In this document: positions 17,758-63,400 of the stretch, in pieces
Numbering within the stretch: position 1 is the stretch's first letter
Layout: each line of letters opens with the position of its first letter
Assembly (NCBI GenBank): GCA_951640165.1
Contig: OX621258.1
Coordinates: forward strand, 6,471,501 to 6,535,500
Length of the DNA stretch: 64,000 bases
Reading direction: 5' to 3'
Source of the DNA: Pseudoips prasinana
Taxonomy: Eukaryota; Arthropoda; Insecta; Lepidoptera; Nolidae
The notes under the pieces: generated by a model
What the model saw: only the letters and a program-made list of their open reading frames with translations
Databases searched by the model: none
What the model was told of the DNA's origin: nothing
Program-made: the position numbers and the translations under genes

Positions 17758-17938
17758 TCCTACTAATATTATAAATACGAAAGTTTGTGAGTATGGATGA
17801 ATGGACATTTGTTATTCTTTCACGAACTATAGAAAGGATTTTGATGAAACTTTGTAGTAATATAGCTAACATATCCGAATAACACATGGGTTATAATTTA
17901 TCAAATTAAACGCGGGTAACACCGCGGGGCTCAGCTAG
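17758..17938 (+). mobile_element. Helitron-like family C, complete copy
   Basis: Starts TCCTACTAATATTATAAATA after an A and runs through GAAAGTTTGTGAGTATGGAT and AGGATTTTGATGAAACTTTG. It ends in the hairpin CGCGGGTAACACCGCGG followed by CTAG before a T. The 3' hairpin a few bases before CTAG, and A/T flanks, are Helitron hallmarks. It is 181 bp and non-autonomous. Confidence 0.85.
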
Positions 17939-18033
17939 TATAAAATAATGATTTAGTATGCAGGGTATAAACAATTGTACCACGAAAGAGGAGAGCGGGA
18001 ATTCTGTTCATACGTAGCTAGATGTAGAGTCAT

Positions 18034-22822: not shown

Positions 22823-23320
22823 AAAGAGAGATAGGCAAGAGATAGATGCGAGCACTAATTTTCTTTCTTTCTTAAGAGAGACAGGCAAGAGATAGGTGCG
22901 AGCACTAATTTTCTTTCTTTCTTAAGAGATAGGCAAGAGATAGGTGCGAGCACAAATTTTCTTTCTTTCTTAAGAGAGATAGGCAAGAGATAGGTGCGAG
23001 CACTAATTTTCTTTCTTTCTTAAGAGAGATAGGCAAGAGATAGGTGCGAGCACTAATTTTCTTTCTTTCTTAAGAGAGATAGGCAAGAGATAGGTGCGAA
23101 CACTAATTTTCTTTCTTTCTTAAGAGAGATAGGCAAGAGATAGGTGCGAGCACTAATTTTCTTTCTTTCTTAAGAGAGACAGGCAAGAGATAGGTGCGAG
23201 CACTAATTTTCTTTCTTTCTTAAGAGAGATAGGCAAGAGATAGGTGCGAGCACTAATTTTCTTTCTTTCTTAAGAGAGATAGGCAAGAGATAGGTGTGAG
23301 CACTAATTTTCTTTCTTTCT
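22823..23320. repeat. Minisatellite, ten copies of a 50-bp unit
   Basis: Units start at 22823, 22873, 22923, 22971, 23021, 23071, 23121, 23171, 23221 and 23271. The third is 48 bp, the others 50. Each unit holds AGAGATAGGCAAGAGATAGG, GCGAGCACTAATTTT and CTTTCTTTC. Copies differ at only one or a few bases (ATAGG/ACAGG, GCGAG/GCGAA/GTGAG), so the array is young or homogenised. The unit is half purine-rich and half pyrimidine-rich on the same strand. Confidence 0.95.
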
Positions 23321-24818: not shown

Positions 24819-25142
24819 TCTATACATATAATAAAATCGTAGGAAAGTCAAAACTGTACATTGAATATTTTTTTAAATGATACTCGTGGCGTGATCTACT
24901 ATCGATACCTACCGAAGCCAAAAATATAGTTTTTAGAATTTTTGTCTGTGTGTCTGTTTGTCTGTATGTATGTCCGGGCTAAACTCAAAAAGTACTGCAT
25001 GCATTTACTTCAAATTTTGCATGAATATTACTAAGAGGTCGGGTCAACATATAGGCTACATATTATCACGCTATCACCTACGGTGGAGGGGCTGAGTTAA
25101 TTTATAAAATTTAACGCGGGTAAAACCGCGTTGCACAGCTAG
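24819..25142 (+). mobile_element. Helitron-like family A, complete copy 1
   Basis: Starts TCTATACATATAATAAAAT after A and has GTCTGTTTGTCTGTATGTAT, GTCCGGGCTAAACTC and TATTATCACGCTATCACC. It ends in the hairpin CGCGGGTAAAACCGCG, then CTAG before T. It is 324 bp with no ORF, so it is mobilised by a partner element. TC start, CTAG end, 3' hairpin and A/T insertion are Helitron features. Confidence 0.88.
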
Positions 25143-25431
25143 TTATTAATATAATTAAATGAAGTTGTGTGTGAATTGATAATGAGTTTTTTATGATGAT
25201 ACAGGATTTTAGTGTCGCATCGTAGGGCAAGGTTCTCCTATAGCAGCAAGAGAAAATAGGACCATATCCCACCACGCCAGCGTAGTGCGGTTTAGTAGAC
25301 TTCACATGCCACCAAGAACATTTTTGGAGAACTCTCAGGCATGCAGGAAACCACGACGTTTTCCTTCACCGTTTTAAATATGAGATAATTAATTTTGTGC
25401 GTACACATATGATTTTGGAAAGTCAGTGTTA
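25143..25431. other. Spacer between two family A elements
   Basis: About 290 bp. A stretch at 25250-25300 (CACCACGCCAGCGTAGTGCG, then GGTTTAGTAGACTTCACATG) is more GC-rich than its surroundings. No gene is seen. Confidence 0.4.
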
Positions 25432-25769
25432 TCTATACATATAATAAAATCGTAGGAAAGTCAAAACTGTACATTGAATATTTTTAGAATTTTGATACTT
25501 GGAACATTGGATACTTGGGGCGTGATCTATAATCGTAGTCGAAGCCAAAAATATAGTTTTTAGAATTTTAGTCTGTGTGTCTGTTTGTCTGTATGTATGT
25601 CCGGGCTAAACTCAAAAAGTACTGCATGGATTTACTTCAAATTTTGCATGAATATTACTAAGAGCTCGGGTCAACATATACGCTTCATATTATCACGATA
25701 TCACCTACGGGGGAGGAGCTATGATAATTTATAAAATTTAACACGGGTAAAACCGCGGGGCACAGCTAG
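25432..25769 (+). mobile_element. Helitron-like family A, complete copy 2
   Basis: Same start, hairpin and CTAG end as the copy at 24819-25142, with A/T flanks. It is 338 bp. The extra length is a small duplication near 25488-25515 (TTTTGATACTTGGAACATTG and a second GATACTTGG). Confidence 0.88.
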
Positions 25770-26384
25770 TACGTCATATGGCAGCAAACTGTTCAAGATT
25801 GGTTCTAGCAAAAGGCTGGCTCAAGATTGGGGGTACATCAGCGCGCCGAGGTATATGCCTAGGAACTCGTAGATATTAAGATTGTAACAAGGTTGGGCAG
25901 TCGTATCCATTAGGGAGTACTTAAAAGAGAAATGTCATGTGGAGTTGTCGTCGTACCATCAGGCTATCCATTTTAAAGTACTGCAGTTCGTCTGTGTATG
26001 TTGGAAGTTGCTTATGGAGAATATTTATCCGCAATTGATACTATAATAAGGTGTCCAGACTACGCTGGAGTATTGTAACTTGCTTCGTATATACGCGTTG
26101 TAAATAGCTATTTTAGTAGCTGAATTGCGTACCTTTGGTTTGAAATCGAGACAAATGACTCCACACTCCAAGGGTCTAATAGGCTATCTGGTTCAAACAT
26201 AAATAATATAAAATCTGTGCAAAACATAATCGTCCACCTAGGTAGCTAGAGAAAGCCGCAGGCTAGCTAGGGTAGGTTCCTCAGCGGCAAGGATCGCTTT
26301 GGCCCATTAACGCGTAATCGGTGATCCCGTGCATGTGATCACACCCTCATTTAGAATTTCGTCTATTTGCTTTAGTCTTCCATT
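25770..26384. other. No gene seen
   Basis: Unassigned sequence. A patch at 26255-26330 is more GC-rich but encodes nothing obvious. Confidence 0.4.
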
Positions 26385-42065: not shown

Positions 42066-43680
42066 ACAGTGCTTGCTTGCCTATCCCATTCGTCCCTCCT
42101 GCCACCAATACAGGTTTGTAGGCAAGTATCCGATATGGATACTAAACCTACAAAGCTATATAGACAGAGTATCTATCCACTATCAATCAGATTTCACCAA
42201 ACCCAAACTTTCTAGAGCACTTTTTATCAAAAATCTATCTGAAATACCTTTACATATAAAATTCAAAGCAATACCTAATCAAACTTCTTACTCTGTTTTA
42301 TTTTGCAAACAAATCAAAAATTGCAATATCTGTCTAAATATTCGATAATATTGATTGATACACAGGATAGAATTGAGGATAGGGGATAGAGGATAGTTTA
42401 TTTTTTAATCCTATTTTTTATCCTATGATTAGTATGGCCTAATTATATATATCTCAAAAGATTAGTTATTTATTTATTTTATTTTAATTATTTACAAAAA
42501 TTATATTTCTCAAGTGGTGGTGACCGTCCTTGTGAGTCTGAGCACAGTGGAAAATATCTAACATATATATTAGTTATATTTACCATTTAAATGATAATTT
42601 CAGATTATTTATCTGAAGCAAGATTAAAAGAAGATAGTTAAATACCAAAAAAAACTTAACCGCATGTGAATAAGGTTCTTTATAAGATATCTTCAATGTA
42701 TTTTTAGCTTGGACGAGAGTATCGTAAGGTTATCGAATGGCCGGGATTTATAGTTATCGAATGATATATTAAATTGGCTGGGTCGTTAAGATAATAATTA
42801 ATTTAATACCCATATCTACTTATCGTATGGGCAGTCGTAAGTTCTAGTGTCAGAGTTGTCTAAGTCTAGTAGCCGAGAAGCCCTTTGACATGACAGCACT
42901 TTTTTGGCCTGACTTAGGATCGTATTTGCTGTTGTTTTTCACCTTACCGCTAGACCAACGAGGTAGTCAATAATTATATCAACGACCACAAATAATGTAT
43001 TCCGCTACTAGAAAAGTAGATTCGTTTAGGTTAGATCTGCGACCATACAACGTACGAGCCGAGAGAGCGAAACGAGCGTGCCTCAGCAGCAGCAGACGAG
43101 CGCCAGAAACGAATCAATTCTTTATCGCTAAAGGATTAATTTATTCAGTAATAAAGAGCTCATGTTCTTATTTAAAATAATGCCGTGAATCACCGCTTAA
43201 CCATGGCTCAGCTAAATCCCGCTCAACCACTTGAACCCCGCTCAACTATTTCTTTATTTACAACCCTACTTAAGGGTTTCTCAGCTAAGTAACGTCATTT
43301 TATTTTACTCTGTCAACATTTCTGGGACTGGTATTGAGCTTTACCAAAATTAATCGACTAAATCGATGATGTATCAATACTTTACGTTTTTTTCTCTATG
43401 GTAGCCATGGAACGATAGATCTGTGATCCTAAAAGTGCATTTTAAAAAGCCTTTGATTTTGTTTGATGGATTTTTCAAGTTTATGATAATGGATCCTACT
43501 GAAATCCTTCGGTATATATTTTAAAACTTAATAAACCAAAAACTTCCATAAAACCTCAATTACCAAACAAACGTCAAACAAAACGTCAGCTGATGCAAAT
43601 AGAAACCGCCATCTTCATTTATTTAACCTAGGTAAACAAGGTAGGTAGGTTTTATAACCTAGGGGCCGACGCGGTTTAAA
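42066..43680. other. No gene seen
   Basis: Unassigned. 42361-42430 has a small GGATAGA/ATCCTATTTTTTATCC inverted patch. The frames at 42003-42348 and 42995-43180 have no recognisable family. The stretch next to the transposon (43190-43270) repeats CTCAACCACTT / CTCAACTATTT-like phrases. Confidence 0.35.
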
Positions 43681-44407
43681 TTTTAACATGACTTAACCGG
43701 TGGTCAAAGTTAAATCGTGCTTTTAAATGAAAAGGAAACGGGCGAAACTGGGCTTGAACGTACACAAATGAATTATTTATTAATAATTTTTATTTATTTT
43801 TTTTATTTTCAATCATTTATTACCAAGGCATTTTAATATGGGATAAAAAAAATAATATTTAATCAAAATAATACTGACTTTCTTTACTTTCACTTTTTAA
43901 CAATGTTGCCAAATGAAATAAGGATTTATTTAATAATCGATTTTAATCGATAAATTGTATTATTATAAAAATAGAAAAACAAGATAATAAAAAAGTAACA
44001 GTATTACTTCTTTATATTAGGTTTTAAAAACTTTTAAAATAAGAACTTAATTATATTATCTAAAATCATCTCTAAGAACATCTTAAAAAGATTTGATTAA
44101 CGGTTCGATTTGAAAATCGATTAATATACTTTTTTATTATACAGGCAACAAAGTAAAACTCGTGTCAATATGACATCGAACGCCAAACAAACAAAAACCG
44201 TTCGCTTTCGCTTTGAACTTGCGATAGTGGATACTGTATTTTGTTGTTTTCGTGTGCTTTTATATTATTTTGCGACTTTGGCTACGTATATAGGATTCTG
44301 ACGGTTATTACTTTGACGGACGACCCACGCATTTCTTACAACGGACTTTGTTATCTTGCCTACTCGACTTACCTCAGACCGCTTACCGGATTTGGAAGCA
44401 ACATACA

Positions 44408-44533
44408 ATGAGTGATCAACGTCTTCATTGTATCAACTGCGGCATCTGGCAGGGTAATCCTTCCATAGGGTTACGACCAATAGAAGAGGAAAACATTATT
44501 TCAGTTATACAGCAATGGGTTGCACCTCAAGTG
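44408..44533 (+). CDS. Transposase exon 1
   Basis: 42 codons from an ATG at 44408 (ACAATGAGTG context), ending QWVAPQV before GTGGTAAGTA. It encodes the first Cys pair (HCINC) and the helical half of zinc module 1. About 100-200 nt of T-rich, short-frame sequence upstream is likely 5' UTR. Confidence 0.8.
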
Positions 44534-47500
44534 GTAAGTAGTTTATTTAATTATATCTTAATATAATATGATCGATATTTTAAGTACAGTCCAGCAAAGA
44601 TACCTTTAAAATAATATCTAATTGGCATATTATTGAAGTAAGGTTCAATAATATGCCAATTAGATAATATTCCTACATAATATCACTATAATGCCTTTGA
44701 TTTATTTAAATTCCAAGTAAGATTTACGGTTCGATTGTCACTATTAAAGGCATTTATTTAGAAGAAAATAAGTACTGAAGATAGTTCTTTTTATATAACT
44801 AACTTAAATAATTAAGCAATTTAATGAAACAATAGTACTATTGAGTGACCTGGTATGAAAGTATTAATATATAACCTCAGCGTCACCATGACGTCAGTAA
44901 GAAGTAATATGCAATTCTGAATGATACAGTTTTCTCACTGTTTTTATTTTGTGCAACAAATATGTACAATGTTCTGAGTCATAATTCTGTAATTATTATT
45001 TGTGGAAACTGTAAATAACTAACTAACATTGTTGTAGGTCAACAGATCTCATCACATTTGTCAAGGATGCAGGGATTTAGTCGTGAATACCGTGAGCACA
45101 GAGGAGCAACTTTCATCGCCAATGTCTGGACATCGCCAAGTGTGTGTGAACTGTGGACGTTCAGTGTTGCGGGCAAGATCTCATTTATTGCACACTGACA
45201 CTGAACGAGAAAGAAGGATTTATACAGTCATTTCTGAATGGATATTGCCTCGGACTGTAAGTTTTTATTAGGTTTAGTTTTTTTGTATTTTATACTACTA
45301 CAGGGTAATCTATGTATACTACTATGTCTGTTTATTTTTCACACTAATTTCTGAAATACCTGTCAGATTTGAGAATCATTTTTGTATATTATTGTCACAT
45401 TCATAAGGAAGATTATACGGAGAGGGAACAAATGGGATATGCGCTTACAAAGGTACGGGCAAAAGCTAGTGTAATATAATTAGGCAACATATAAAAACAC
45501 AAATCACATTGCAGCCTGTATTTCACGAAGGTGTAGATTAGAAGAGATACACGTTTTACAGTGCTGTTTTTATGGTCAGGTATTACCTTTTTTTAAAAAA
45601 AGACTTATTATAAAATATTTTTTCCAGATTTCAAGAGCTCGTGCTCTCATATGTCATAGTTGCTGGGTGAGAGCTGATAGAAATGCCCATCATTTTTTGG
45701 CTGGGCCATCTGGATCTTCAGCATCAGTAGATGTAACAAGTGAACATGATGAATCAACTTCGCAGTCTAGTTCACAGACTACTTTGCACTCTACTTCACT
45801 GTTTACTACTGACGTAGCTGTGTCACAAGCCACTGCACAAGATATATCACAGACTACTCCTCAAAATACATCACAAGGTACGTCACAGGGTACTCCACAG
45901 TTTACCCCCAGGTCAAGTACAACTATAATATTACCTGATTATGTAAGAGCAGTAGAAACTGAATCACATTGTTTTATTGAAGGTTGCCGAAGGCAAGAGA
46001 GGAATAGAGTTCCTGTCACAACCAGGAAAATGTTGTTAGATCTTTATAAATTCTACATCCCAAAAAACAATAGATTATGCAATCATCATATTAATATTCA
46101 GTCTTGGGATTTTCTCACTGGGGTTTTAGAAAACTATGTTAATGTGTTTACAGCATTGCACATTCAAGACATGCTAGAATTAAAGAGTCACTCAAATACT
46201 GGTCTTGATTTTATTAATATCCAAAATATGGAAGATCGTTTGGTTCACCATTGGTTAGGCTTTACTAAAGAACAGTGTCAAAGGATTTTAAATGAAGTGC
46301 CACAATTACTGTTAAAGTCATCAGGCCCCATTGGGTTGACAGCATACTTGATAAAGTTGAGAACCGGTGATTCCAATGAAAGAATATCTGCGCTATTTAA
46401 CATTCCAAAAAGAACACTTGATGGTTATGTTTCTGAAGCTCGACACTTGATGTATGATTATTTTGTACCTAGGCATTTAGGGCTTAACCATATAAATCGC
46501 CAGGAAAATGTTGACAGAACCTTGTTAATACCTCAAGGTTTATTTGGAAGCCATAACGGGGAAAATAAACCTGTAATAATAATCGATGGTATATATTGCT
46601 ATATTGATAAAAGTTCAAATTATTTGTACCAAAAAAGAACTCACAGTTTACACAAGTATAATAACTTAGTAAAACCATTTATACTTGTATGTACAGATGG
46701 TCATATTGTTGATGTAATGGGCCCCTATCCTGCTACCACGTCGGATGCAGAAATCATTAATAATGAGTTTCGTGATGCTAATTCGATGTTACGACAGTAT
46801 TTACAAGCTGGTGATGCATTCATTTTGGATAGGGGCTTCAGAGATGCCTTGCCTTTATTAAATGAATGTGGTTATAGAACTTACGTACCACCAACATTGC
46901 CGCAGGGTGAATGGCAGCATTCCACATTAGAAGCTAATAAATCGAGGGCAGTCACCATATGCAGATGGGTTGTTGAAGTTGTGAACGGAAGGTTTAAAAG
47001 GGATTTTAAATTATTTAGACAAGAATATTTTAATACTGCTTCAAAACATTCAATGACTGATTTTGAGGTGGCTGCCTCACTATTAAATGCTTTTCACCCT
47101 CCCATTACAAATCGTGTTGATGCTGGGGATATTTTACAAATAATCAATGAGAATATGAACAGAGAAAATGATTTAGGCTATTATGTCATTCAAAATAATA
47201 TAAACCGACGTAGGGCTGATTTTACAAGAATTCATGTGCAAAATGATAATTTAAATGATTTTCCCCAGCTCACACATAGTGATTTAATAAAAGTATCTTT
47301 AGGTATTTACCAAATTAAACAGGCTAGGTCATATTATGGAGAACACATACGACAAGATGGTAGATATGAAATAGAAGTGTGTCGAGATACGGACAGCAAC
47401 CTACTAAGAGAACTGTCGATTGCCACTCATTCTTGCTGGCTATTGAGAGGTCGAATAAAATCAAGACATATAAGTTCAAAAACATATTTTACCTACATTT

Positions 47501-47700
47501 TAGTTGACAGTTCTCTTAATGGAAGAGAGGCCATAAAACAATATTATTGTAATTGCTTGGTAGGAAAACGGACTGTAGGTTGCTGTTGTCACATAATGTC
47601 CATAATATGGTACCTAGGCTGGGCAAGGCATCAACAGGATGTAACACCACCTGCACAGTTTTTAGACGATATTTTAATTGTATATGATGAAGTGGATTAA
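44408..47700 (+). CDS. Three-exon transposase: zinc modules, DDE_Tnp_4-like core, SWIM finger (805 aa)
   Basis: Join 44408-44533, 45038-45256 and 45628-47700; both introns are phase 0 with GTAAGT donors and AG acceptors. Residues 8-53, 78-127 and 230-269 are three successive Cys/His pair modules (C-x2-C...C-x2-C twice, then C-x4-C...C-x2-H). A helix-turn-helix-like segment (ERISALFNIPKRTLDGYVSE) follows. The catalytic core has Asp435 (VIIIDGIYCYI), Asp516 (AFILDRGFRD) and Glu565 (CRWVVEVVNGRFK), the D-D-E layout of DDE_Tnp_4 proteins (IS5/Harbinger/ISL2EU-like). The C-terminus has a SWIM-type finger, Cys756-x-Cys758-x9-Cys768-x-His770. Between the first and third modules runs a Ser/Thr/Gln-rich linker. 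No stop or frameshift breaks the frame, so it is probably a functional or recently active transposase. The superfamily assignment is from motifs alone. Confidence 0.88.
44534..45037 (+). other. Transposase intron 1, with a perfect hairpin
   Basis: 504-nt phase 0 intron (GTAAGT...TTGTTGTAG). It contains a perfect 23-bp hairpin at 44615-44666. Confidence 0.75.
44615..44666. repeat. Perfect 23-bp hairpin in the transposase intron
   Basis: Arms 44615-44637 and 44644-44666 are exact reverse complements (core CTAATTGGCATATTATTGAA) with a 6-nt loop GTAAGG. Confidence 0.9.
45038..45256 (+). CDS. Transposase exon 2
   Basis: 73 codons, from VNRSHHICQGC to SEWILPRT before a GTAAGT donor. It supplies the second Cys pair of module 1 (CQGC) and the first half of module 2 (CVNC plus helix). 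The exon therefore straddles two repeated modules. Confidence 0.82.
45257..45627 (+). other. Transposase intron 2
   Basis: 371-nt phase 0 intron from GTAAGT to TTTTTTCCAG. No further exon is seen inside. Confidence 0.75.
45628..47700 (+). CDS. Transposase exon 3
   Basis: 690 codons plus TAA. It begins ISRARALICHSCWVRADRN, the second half of zinc module 2. It then carries the Ser/Gln/Thr-rich linker, zinc module 3, the helix-turn-helix, the DDE core and the SWIM finger, and ends DEVD. An internal Met (ATG at 45667) would also open the frame but would lose two zinc modules, so the spliced start is preferred. Confidence 0.85.
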   Translation: MSRARALICHSCWVRADRNAHHFLAGPSGSSASVDVTSEHDESTSQSSSQTTLHSTSLFTTDVAVSQATAQDISQTTPQNTSQGTSQGTPQFTPRSSTTIILPDYVRAVETESHCFIEGCRRQERNRVPVTTRKMLLDLYKFYIPKNNRLCNHHINIQSWDFLTGVLENYVNVFTALHIQDMLELKSHSNTGLDFINIQNMEDRLVHHWLGFTKEQCQRILNEVPQLLLKSSGPIGLTAYLIKLRTGDSNERISALFNIPKRTLDGYVSEARHLMYDYFVPRHLGLNHINRQENVDRTLLIPQGLFGSHNGENKPVIIIDGIYCYIDKSSNYLYQKRTHSLHKYNNLVKPFILVCTDGHIVDVMGPYPATTSDAEIINNEFRDANSMLRQYLQAGDAFILDRGFRDALPLLNECGYRTYVPPTLPQGEWQHSTLEANKSRAVTICRWVVEVVNGRFKRDFKLFRQEYFNTASKHSMTDFEVAASLLNAFHPPITNRVDAGDILQIINENMNRENDLGYYVIQNNINRRRADFTRIHVQNDNLNDFPQLTHSDLIKVSLGIYQIKQARSYYGEHIRQDGRYEIEVCRDTDSNLLRELSIATHSCWLLRGRIKSRHISSKTYFTYILVDSSLNGREAIKQYYCNCLVGKRTVGCCCHIMSIIWYLGWARHQQDVTPPAQFLDDILIVYDEVD

Positions 47701-48174
47701 TAAATAAATAAAAGAGAAATGTGATTTTTATTCCTGCTTACCCTTTTTTATAATAAGATTGCAAATATTTAACATTTACAATCCAGTTAGGCGACGCCGG
47801 CGCTTTGAAAACCACACACAATGTGTTCATGCTCTAAAATACATTCTGATAAAATCTAGTCTACAATAAAGTCTAAATAATAATCTAAATAGACCATAAG
47901 AGCACTGACAGCTTGGAAGAATAACTTATAAAGAAGCAAAAAAGGTTAGTTTTGTGTAAACTAATAATACCCTATATTTTTTTTCTCCCATATTGCAATT
48001 CTATAAATATTTTTTTATTTTAAATAGTAATAATATTGAAATGATATAATGTAATAATCGTTGCTGTACGGTGAAGCCCAACTTTGTATGAACATTCGCC
48101 CGTCTCCTTTTGCTAGATATAAGCGGACGGTTTATAATTTAAGTAGCGTGTTAAAATAAGGCGATCAGTGGTTA

Positions 48175-48989
<815 letters not shown>

Positions 48990-49842
48990 TATCTAATAAT
49001 TAAAATGATTTTATACATACATACAAGACATCAAAATCACTTAGTTTTATGTCTCTTTTATTAGAAGAGTCTTTTTTGGTTTTCTTTAAAATACTTTTTG
49101 TTCATAAGTTTTGTTTTTATAATATGTAGTTTGTTTGTAATCCATCACTAATATCACTTTCCCAAATGTTTGCTGTGAGACAATTTATAATTGAGTTAAG
49201 CTCGTCTCTGTTCGATGTATCTATCCTTCTTTTTAGCTTTTATATACATTTCTGTATGCAATTAATAAAAATATCCGTTATAAATAACAAATCTCATACT
49301 AAAATAAAGAAGGCAGAATTGATAAATAGATATTGGAGTAATCACGAACGGTGAGAGCTATCAAGACCTTACGTAACGATTTTGAGCAAAGGTCAACCAT
49401 TTTCGAGTAATATTGTAAATTTTATATTTTTTCTATATTTATAATTTTATAAATTAACTGCGGTATGCAGTTTTGAACATATAAAAATAAAACCTATGTA
49501 TGCATTATTTTTCAAATAACATTATATTCAGTTTGTATTGAACCGCATTTTTGCCTCCTCGAGAGCGGAATGAAGGACTTAAATGTTTTTTACTTGACTT
49601 AAATATCTTGGCCTCAAAATGTTTTATCGCGTATTGGAAACATAACTAAATCAATAATATATAACGCCATCTCTGAGACATTTCAGTTGTGACTACACTC
49701 CTAAACGGTCAAACCAATTTTGGTGAAACTTTTTGTGTGTTCGAGTGGACCCGTCGATAGCCCTCCTATTTGGAATCCTCAGATGGCGCTACAATGGGGT
49801 TTTAGGTTTTTCAACCCGATTTTTTTCTATTTTTAGAACAGG
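48990..49842. other. No gene seen
   Basis: Unassigned. 49670-49760 has the phrase AAACGGTCAAACCAATTTTG and CTCAGATGGCGCTACAATGG, a repeat-like piece without a second copy here. Confidence 0.4.
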
Positions 49843-55618: not shown

Positions 55619-55921
55619 TCAAATCATATAATAAAATCGTAGGAAAGTCAAAACTGTACATTGAATATTTTTTTTAAAGGATACTTGGGGCGTGAACTAC
55701 AATCGATATCGAAGCCAAAAATATAGTTTTCAGAATTTTTGTCTGTATGTATGTCCGAGCTAAACTCAAAAAGTACTGCATGGATTTACTTCAAATTTTG
55801 CATGAATATTACTCGGGTCGGGTCAACATATAGGCTACATATTATCACGCTATCACCTACGGGGGAGGAGCTGTGATAATTTATAAAATTTAGCGCGGGT
55901 AAAACCGCGGGGTACAGCTAG
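55619..55921 (+). mobile_element. Helitron-like family A, complete copy 4
   Basis: Starts TCAAATCATATAATAAAAT. It has TCTGTATGTATGTCCGAGC and CTACGGGGGAGGAGCTGTG, and ends in CGCGGGTAAAACCGCGG and CTAG before T. It is 303 bp. Confidence 0.85.
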
Positions 55922-55934
55922 TAATAATTATGAT

Positions 55935-60462: not shown

Positions 60463-63400
60463 CTGTATAGAAAATATACTTTGCTATACAAACCAGTTTA
60501 TAAGAAAATTGTATTTAAAAGAAATCTCTACTGATGTTACTATCCTCCTTTCCACAGCAAAAAAAAAAAATTCACCAATCGTGGTTTTGTATTCCTCTAA
60601 TTCTAAAATCCAAACGTAACTAGTGTTATGGCCTGTAACCAAAACCGAAACTGAATTTCGGTTTCGGTCACAGTTTCGGCCGAAACAAAGGGTCAAGTTT
60701 TCGAGGGAAAAAAATACACTCAATCATAACCAGTCAGTATTTACTATCAAAATGACACATCGTAGGTCGCATCTGAGCATCTAACATGTCCGCAGCCGAA
60801 ACTGTTTTTTTGCCGAATATAGGTTGAAAACCAAAGATCGGTCGGAGAGTACCTAATTCCTCTTCCAAACAGAACTGATTTCAATTTATTTTCAGTAATC
60901 AAGCAACAAAAGAGTATCATGTTCCCCTAGCTTTTGCTGAGGTAAGCATCTTTTCCTCGTTTGTAAGATAATGTTAAGCAACATTATCTGTCAAGCATTC
61001 TTCCAATGTATGCATGCTTCGTAATTAACAGCAATGCAAACTAAGTTAAGTATTTGTATTATCTGTGCTTGTTCAGAATAAATCTTTTTTCTAGGGTCAT
61101 AAATTAGGCAGCAGTTGTAAGTTTATTCACAAAAGTGTAGTAGTCGGGTATACAAGATATTACGTATTACGTACGGAAAATGAGGAATACGTTTCTATGA
61201 GAAAATGGCACCTAGTAACGGCTATTACTGTGCTCTTCGACTTCTCCTTCCTGTCCACAACATATTTCTCCCTATGGAAGAATTGTGAGTCTCGGGTTAG
61301 GGAATTGATCGCGCCCCTTACCGATTATAATACGGCCGTCCCGAGCGGGGTAAAGCGACAGGAAAACCATCGGGAGAGATCCAAGCCTAAATAAAGATAA
61401 TTATACTGTACCTCGTTCTTCCAACATTTCCAATCTCTTCCGTTCAACCTCCATCAGGCTATCCAACGTTCTCTTCCCCAACGAGTTCATATCCGTATCA
61501 CTGGGTAATATAGGAGCATCAATTGTCACCTTCGATATCCTATCTATATCATCTTGGGACGGAATTTTACTAACATCAGCTATTTTCTGAAATTCTTTGC
61601 TATTCGGCTCATCTCCACAACTTTTCCGATGCAAAATCTTTGCGGATTGAGCGGTTTCTATAAAATTTTCTTGTTTTTCTGGAGTTTCGAATGTAACTTT
61701 GATTTTCTGTTCCTGTTCATCTTCTTCTTTAATATCAGCTTCTTTTTTGTCTGGAGACATTGATTTGGCTTTTACATACTTATTTTCTGCGTTAACAGTT
61801 TTTGCATTTTTGATATATCTATTTTTTGAGTTATTTTCTTTGTCCTCGTCTTTGATGCTGTTTTCCCGAGATTTTTTGCCGAAGGAGTCTTTCTTCATTA
61901 TTTTACCTAACGCAGCAAAAGTGGGGATTTTGGATGAGGAGTTACTCTTGACAGGTCCAGTTGGTTTGTCTTTCTTCTTGGAATGCCTTAGACTGTTGAA
62001 TTTGTCTAGACTTACATCTACTTCTATATTATCATTATAGAAAAAGTTTTCGTTTAAGCTTTGTGACATTATGTCGACTTTTTCGGGGGATTTTGGTTTC
62101 TTGCTTTTTCTTTTCAATGAGTCGAAATTTCGTTCCCAAAATCCTTTCTTTTCTTTGGAAGAAGTCGATGATTTTGACGGACTTTCACTATACCTTTCTT
62201 CTGTGTCAATAATGTCGGATATTATTCTTCTTTCAATATCTACTGTCATAGATTGAGACATTTGGTCTATAGAATTGAATTTGTCCTTCATTTGTTTTGT
62301 ATGGTCTTCAAAGTTTTTAATATCAATTTCATCACTATCTGAACTTTGTGGAGAGTAACCAAATTCGCCCGATTTTGCTCTTGTTTGGTCTGTATAGAAA
62401 GCACTGTCAGGTGATTGTGTTCGTTCTACATCATTGAGCTTTGCTACTATAGGTTTTAACTCCTTTTCTATAGATTGAACTTTCCCAGTCAGTTCTTCAA
62501 CTAAGTTCAATAGTCTCACATATTCCGCGTGAAGGACTTTGGTTTCATCTAAAGCAGAGGTTAAATTGTTATTAGCTTCAGATTTTAGGGTGAGTATTCT
62601 AGTTTTTTGGGCCTCAATCTTTTTGGTTAGTAGAATGATTTCGTTTTGGATGTCTTCTCTATTCGATAACCTGTAAGTAAAATAAAGAATATATAAGCAA
62701 AAATTGAATTGATTTACAGCCTTAGTGAAGACTTTCTAATAATTCCGAAATTAGTAAAATATTATCATCTAAATTGGTAAATTTATATTTTGCAGGAATT
62801 TTTGTGTATTAAATAAATTAATCAAGTTATTTGGCTTTTACTTGAGAATAACAGTTGCCATATTGTAGTTGGATGTGGTTTGATATTAAATAATTATTAA
62901 TATGCCTGTGAGACAACACAAATCTTTCTTTATCCAGTAACAATATTTTACAACTTACAATTCAGACTCCTCCTCCAAATGTTGGAACTCCAAGTCCTCA
63001 AAGATCTTTGTCTCATTGTCCAAAATGTCCTGTGCGTTCTGCAGCTCTTCGAGTGTCGCAGCGTTATTTTTCAGGTCTTTCTCTATCCTGGATATGGGAA
63101 AAGTGTAGTTATAAATACATTCTTATGATACAAACCCAAGTACAACCAAAGCATACAGTATCAACTTGATTCTACCCTCAAATGATAAATGATAACTCGA
63201 TGACAGTTAGTGAACAAATTAAATTGTTTAAAAGATATAGACAAAGATAAAGACTTTATGTGAAGGGCAGAGTAGTTTATTTAGATCATCATATTAGACG
63301 AAAGACGTCCACTACTCAAAGGCCCCCGAACTATTTGCACAATTGTTTGTCTTTCGCTACCTAGGTCAAGCGGCTTTCACAAGATCATTGGTTCATCTTG

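Follow-up and report, generated by a model that had tools for sequence, protein, structure and literature searches.

A stretch of 64,000 nucleotides from the genome of the lepidopteran Pseudoips prasinana (Nolidae; assembly GCA_951640165.1, contig OX621258.1, positions 6,471,501 to 6,535,500), called the window here, contains a spliced transposase gene in which zinc modules and a SWIM-like finger accompany a DDE core. To what kind of DNA transposon does such a protein belong? The initial annotation of the locus, made from the letters alone, had proposed an unusual or undescribed lineage. Our answer differs: with a probability of roughly 0.93, the gene is part of an autonomous Spy element, a member of the PHIS superfamily of DDE_Tnp_4/IS5-like type, because the element has AAA and TTT flanks without duplication, a single gene and terminal inverted repeats, which are the published marks of Spy. 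Since it bears this signature, and since two further families in the same genome have the same flanks, what we describe is a new family within a known kind of transposon rather than a lineage yet to be described.

The ends of the element were fixed solely through its other genomic copies. A search of the genome (1.13 Gb in 56 contigs) gave 28 further loci whose protein matches are 96-99% identical over 444 to 690 of the 690 exon 3 residues, together with shorter pieces; at the DNA level these 28 copies are 98-99.7% identical to that of the window, except for one at 95.5%. Short non-autonomous copies were looked for via the right end alone. In 20 of the 28, similarity to the window breaks off precisely at 48110, with TTT still included, and TTT stands at the right end of each of the 27 distinct copies, that of the window among them, for which this end was found. 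Both ends could be read in 22 copies, again counting that of the window, and all of them start with GGAAACGGGCGAA, have AAA directly before and TTT directly after them, and show mixed bases farther out, i.e. there is no target-site duplication in 22/22 copies. Seven of the other 28 are absent from this count: in L013 and L026 the left pieces (L050 and L062) lack the end, no left piece was retrieved for L022, L023 and L025, and in L029 and L035 the right end was not found. The shared ends and the flanks thus delimit an element of 4374 bp at 43734-48107, with terminal inverted repeats of 13 bp that are identical at 12 positions in the window copy and are followed by gapped subterminal similarity. 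Examined alone, the window was less informative. The ends were absent among the 25 pairs listed, of 194, in an ungapped inverted-repeat search, and a gapped local alignment scored 50, against 37 for the best of 60 shuffles, and covered the ends but extended beyond both of them. A pair of inverted sequences near 42818/51402 (73% over 75 nt) was left aside, as it falls outside the ends common to the copies. A paralogous empty site was found for one copy, L021: a repeat present in L023 aligns with its flanks gap-free across the junction, with 94% identity along 132 bases, of which 42 lie to the right of the junction.

As far as the accessible text of PMC4482050 goes, the groups of the PHIS superfamily are defined by target-site composition, and Spy, which carries only one transposase, is set apart from all the others by its AAATTT target and the lack of duplication. 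The accessible text of PMC11304231 reports Spy from nine insect orders, with lengths of 1165-5910 bp and mostly AAA and TTT flanks; the hosts include Helicoverpa zea and Lymantria dispar, the element cgSpy comes from Colletes gigas, a solitary open reading frame (ORF) of about 700 amino acids is described for five elements, and ISL2EU is given as the sister group. The P. prasinana element resembles Spy, as portrayed in these parts of the two sources, in its AAATTT insertion without duplication, its terminal inverted repeats, its one transposase gene combining a DDE and a DNA-binding part, its length and its lepidopteran host. With ISL2EU it shares a DDE core of the same superfamily and, ahead of this core, a C2CH module (which in ISL2EU is THAP, according to the portion of the literature available), but it differs by the absence of an AT duplication (the target would read A|AT|T), the left flank being AAA in 22/22 copies. 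PIF/Harbinger elements have, in the same portion, a related core and a helix-turn-helix, but the TWA duplication is missing here, the flanks being AAA and TTT in 22/22. Both groups would also call for a second gene, for YqaJ in ISL2EU and for a Myb/SANT protein in PIF/Harbinger, and no second ORF of at least 110 amino acids is present inside 43734-48107, where smaller ORFs were not domain-searched and a second gene made of tiny spliced exons could escape. A study of DDE_Tnp_4 genes of a crab (PMC8697882, in its accessible part) was of no help.

More distant transposases, related to this one at about 59-65%, 51-53% and 48-49% identity (L063-L066), also occur in the same genome, some of them in near-identical copies; a search with DDE_Tnp_4 scored 150 loci out of 1797 candidates. 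Two further families, whose proteins share about 48-53% identity with that of the window, also have AAA directly ahead of their start and TTT directly past their end (2/2 copies of each), and their termini are related. Since both are flanked in this way, the transposase clade behaves, as far as sampled, as Spy. Homologs from elsewhere were collected in three sets, one of 44 proteins and two consisting of the best 120 of 197 and the best 120 of 416, the larger two scoring only those candidates that share most words. Among the matches listed, the named ones come from Vanessa, Maniola, Bicyclus, Helicoverpa, Spodoptera, Parnassius, Melitaea, Ostrinia, Bombyx, Cydia and others, genera which we take to be lepidopteran, and none is a protein named Spy. 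Scans of genome-contig and viral-contig collections revealed no relative.

Splicing at introns of the GT..AG type yields the frame that had been read from the letters, 805 codons followed by TAA in three exons (Table 1); the coordinates first given for the locus, 44408..47700, hold for the coding region and fall short of the element, which extends over 43734-48107. Intron 1 contains a near-perfect hairpin at 44610-44671 (28-nt arms, 96% complementary), which is spanned by the alignments of many genomic copies. The DDE core proposed by the initial annotation was retrieved by Pfam, where DDE_Tnp_4 matches the window protein above the cut-off (E=3.2e-11), while NCBIfam yielded nothing beyond weak matches to IS5/IS4 that stay below its cut-offs. 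In an alignment of the window protein with the set of 44 homologs, D435 and D516 are invariant in the 45/45 rows that cover them and E565 in 44/44. The structure of the exon 3 product is predicted with confidence, and the model has the RNase H-like fold of integrases and transposases, in agreement with the DNA transposon that had been postulated; a sequence search of solved structures returned nothing meaningful.

Table 1. Coordinates, within the window, of the Spy element and of the parts of its transposase gene
Feature	Position	Strand	Remarks
Target site, 5' half (AAA)	43731..43733	+	AAA in 22/22 copies, mixed bases farther out
Complete Spy element	43734..48107	+	4374 bp; ends set by other genomic copies
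Left terminal inverted repeat, GGAAACGGGCGAA	43734..43746	+	12/13 bases match the right end
Exon 1	44408..44533	+	codons 1-42; start codon and beginning of zinc module 1
Exon 2	45038..45256	+	codons 43-115; remainder of module 1, first part of module 2
Exon 3	45628..47700	+	codons 116-805 and stop
Third module, C-x4-C-x30-C-x2-H	45970..46089	+	residues 230-269; C2CH
Helix-turn-helix	46348..46458	+	residues 356-392; weak HTH_Tnp_4 match
DDE_Tnp_4 catalytic domain	46582..47088	+	residues 434-602
Catalytic triad codons	D435 46585-46587; D516 46828-46830; E565 46975-46977	+	
SWIM-like finger, CxC-x9-CxH	47548..47592	+	residues 756-770
Right terminal inverted repeat, GGAGACGGGCGAA	48095..48107	-	near inverse of the left end
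Target site, 3' half (TTT)	48108..48110	+	seen in 22/22 copies with both ends

Outside the core, the protein has two C2-C2 zinc modules (C8/C11/C50/C53 and C78/C81/C124/C127), each interrupted by an intron in the window copy, one C2CH module (C230/C235/C266/H269) and a C-terminal finger (C756/C758/C768/H770), so that all the Cys and His pairs announced at first are indeed there. Ligands were listed when aligned in more than 15 of the 45 rows and more than 85% alike, and those listed are invariant where covered: 78/81 in 17/17 rows, 124/127 in 26/26, 230/235 in 37/37, 266/269 in 39/39, 756/758 in 42/42 and 768/770 in 41/41. The four cysteines of the first module fell outside these filters and the figures exclude them. 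Recognition by profiles is another matter. Pfam does not recognize the zinc modules, its matches to NOB1, DZR_2, CxC6 and GAGA being weak and all under the cut-offs. HTH_Tnp_4 matches the window protein below the cut-off (E=7e-4) and is matched at E<=1 by 23/27 family members. The domains SWIM and THAP give no match with the window protein at E<=10. The C2CH module, modelled as a short strand, a helix and short strands, has a ligand spacing that presumably resembles that of THAP, and THAP matched none of 27 family members (E<=1) and none of four excised modules (E<=10). Weak SWIM matches occur in 3/27 family members (the best at E=0.023 and 14.7 bits, for a cut-off of 19.6), and several homologs carry the UniProt name 'SWIM-type domain-containing'. 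Across 127 proteins, a pattern scan found the motif LDRGFRD in 117, the C2CH module in 86 and, anchored on LDRGFRD, the finger motif in 97; of the remaining 30, 20 lack the finger and 10 lack the anchor, hence could not be assessed. There are two C2-C2 modules in 15 proteins (the window's included), four in 5, one in 9 and none in 98, many of the latter being short-contig entries that may lack the first exons.

SWIM fingers being frequent in the transposases of Mutator-like elements (as a table in the accessible part of PMC6446971 indicates), one could think of such an element. The chances of this are next to nil: the core matches DDE_Tnp_4 and no Mutator-like family, and the 8-11 bp duplication typical of these elements is not seen, nothing being duplicated past AAA and TTT in 22/22 copies, so this classification was rejected on account of the flanks.

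The assignment to Spy, which is drawn from the flanks, the number of genes and the terminal repeats, is not free of difficulties, and the following points weigh against it. The transposase, with its 805 residues and three exons, is longer than the solitary ORF of about 700 amino acids. The empty site in L023 reads ATATTT versus AAATTT, thus one base off inside the target, and at a second empty site, located in tandem repeats of L019, the alignment has to be gapped at the junction. With Foldseek by itself, neither of two models found a PDB match at E<=0.001. The zinc modules and the finger go unmentioned in the main texts of the two papers searched: in the main text of PMC4482050, 'SWIM' and 'zinc finger' do not occur and 'THAP' occurs once, about ISL2EU, and all three terms are absent from the main text of PMC11304231. 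Our literature searches returned no title or abstract opening in which Spy is connected with a SWIM finger or with zinc modules, and we found no description of this architecture in the literature searched, the founding Spy paper being beyond that coverage. This silence would suit a separate lepidopteran PHIS lineage, equipped with zinc modules and a SWIM-like finger, which came to the AAATTT target independently of Spy. We consider this improbable, because, in the portions available, it is the target site that defines a PHIS group and AAATTT without duplication is unique to Spy (PMC4482050), and because Spy is known from Lepidoptera including Helicoverpa zea (PMC11304231), from which two of our homologs (P0033 and P0045) originate. 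Within the Spy reading, the unusual trait is how many zinc-binding modules the transposase has, and it is the zinc/SWIM architecture that may be new. We propose only tentatively, as an idea we would not yet wager on, that lepidopteran Spy transposases form a subgroup with an as yet undescribed composite DNA-binding apparatus, made of two to four C2-C2 modules, a C2CH module, a helix-turn-helix and a SWIM-like finger.

Has the family been active, and is the window copy still so? A complete open frame with start codon and splice sites is found in 13 of the 28 other copies; the remaining 15 have stops, gaps or insertions or, in L022, L023 and L025, an aligned stretch without exon 1. Singleton changes amount to 118 nonsynonymous versus 36 synonymous, near the neutral expectation of 3.1, which argues that the copies, once inserted, evolve by drift and are not genes of the host. 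The open frame, the splice sites and the conserved catalytic residues might have suggested a transposase-derived gene domesticated by the host, but dozens of near-identical copies with complete ends, the neutral ratio and an intact frame established in just 13/28 other copies make this extremely unlikely, and for the family it was rejected on copy number and neutral drift. The near-identity of the copies, the 13 fully open frames and the neutral ratio show instead that this Spy family was recently active in this genome. The capacity for activity ascribed to the locus in the initial annotation therefore stands for the family in the recent past and is doubtful for the window copy itself, which has seven private bases in the coding sequence and six private residues. 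Four of these residues are at positions where a different residue is common to at least 40 of up to 44 homologs; one, I437, lies two residues past the first catalytic aspartate and is Thr in 43/44 homologs. At residue 507, the window's residue is shared by two homologs. Judging from these substitutions, the window copy is probably impaired despite its open frame.

Elsewhere in the window, there are tandem arrays at 564-1964 (4.1 copies of a 342-bp unit) and 22824-23320 (10 copies of a 50-bp unit). A lysine- and serine-rich open frame of 444 amino acids on the minus strand, 61401-62735, is perhaps a host gene exon; its sole Pfam match, to Rx_N, is weak (E=0.007, under the cut-off). A 55-nt repeat (AATTTATAAAATTTAACGCGGG...) is dispersed over the window, with ten members at >=60% identity, among them 17895-17949, 25099-25153, 25726-25780, 48946-49000 and 55878-55932, one being about 0.8 kb to the right of the Spy element.

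How would such an element move? The single spliced gene would make the transposase, whose N-terminal zinc modules, C2CH module and helix-turn-helix may bind the terminal repeats; any part taken by the SWIM-like finger would be conjectural. The RNase H-like D435/D516/E565 site would excise the element, and a blunt insertion in the middle of AAATTT, by a presumably blunt strand transfer, would leave AAA and TTT as flanks with nothing duplicated. Few DDE transposons insert without duplicating their target. Use as a gene-transfer tool has been suggested for one Spy element (PMC11304231, in its accessible part). The result is a Spy family whose ends are well defined, which was active recently and has many intact copies, with a fold confidently predicted for most of the transposase, in which the zinc-module array and the SWIM-like finger are concrete candidate parts for the recognition of the ends. 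If the composite apparatus proposed above is real, a changed number of modules may retarget the transposase to diverging terminal repeats.
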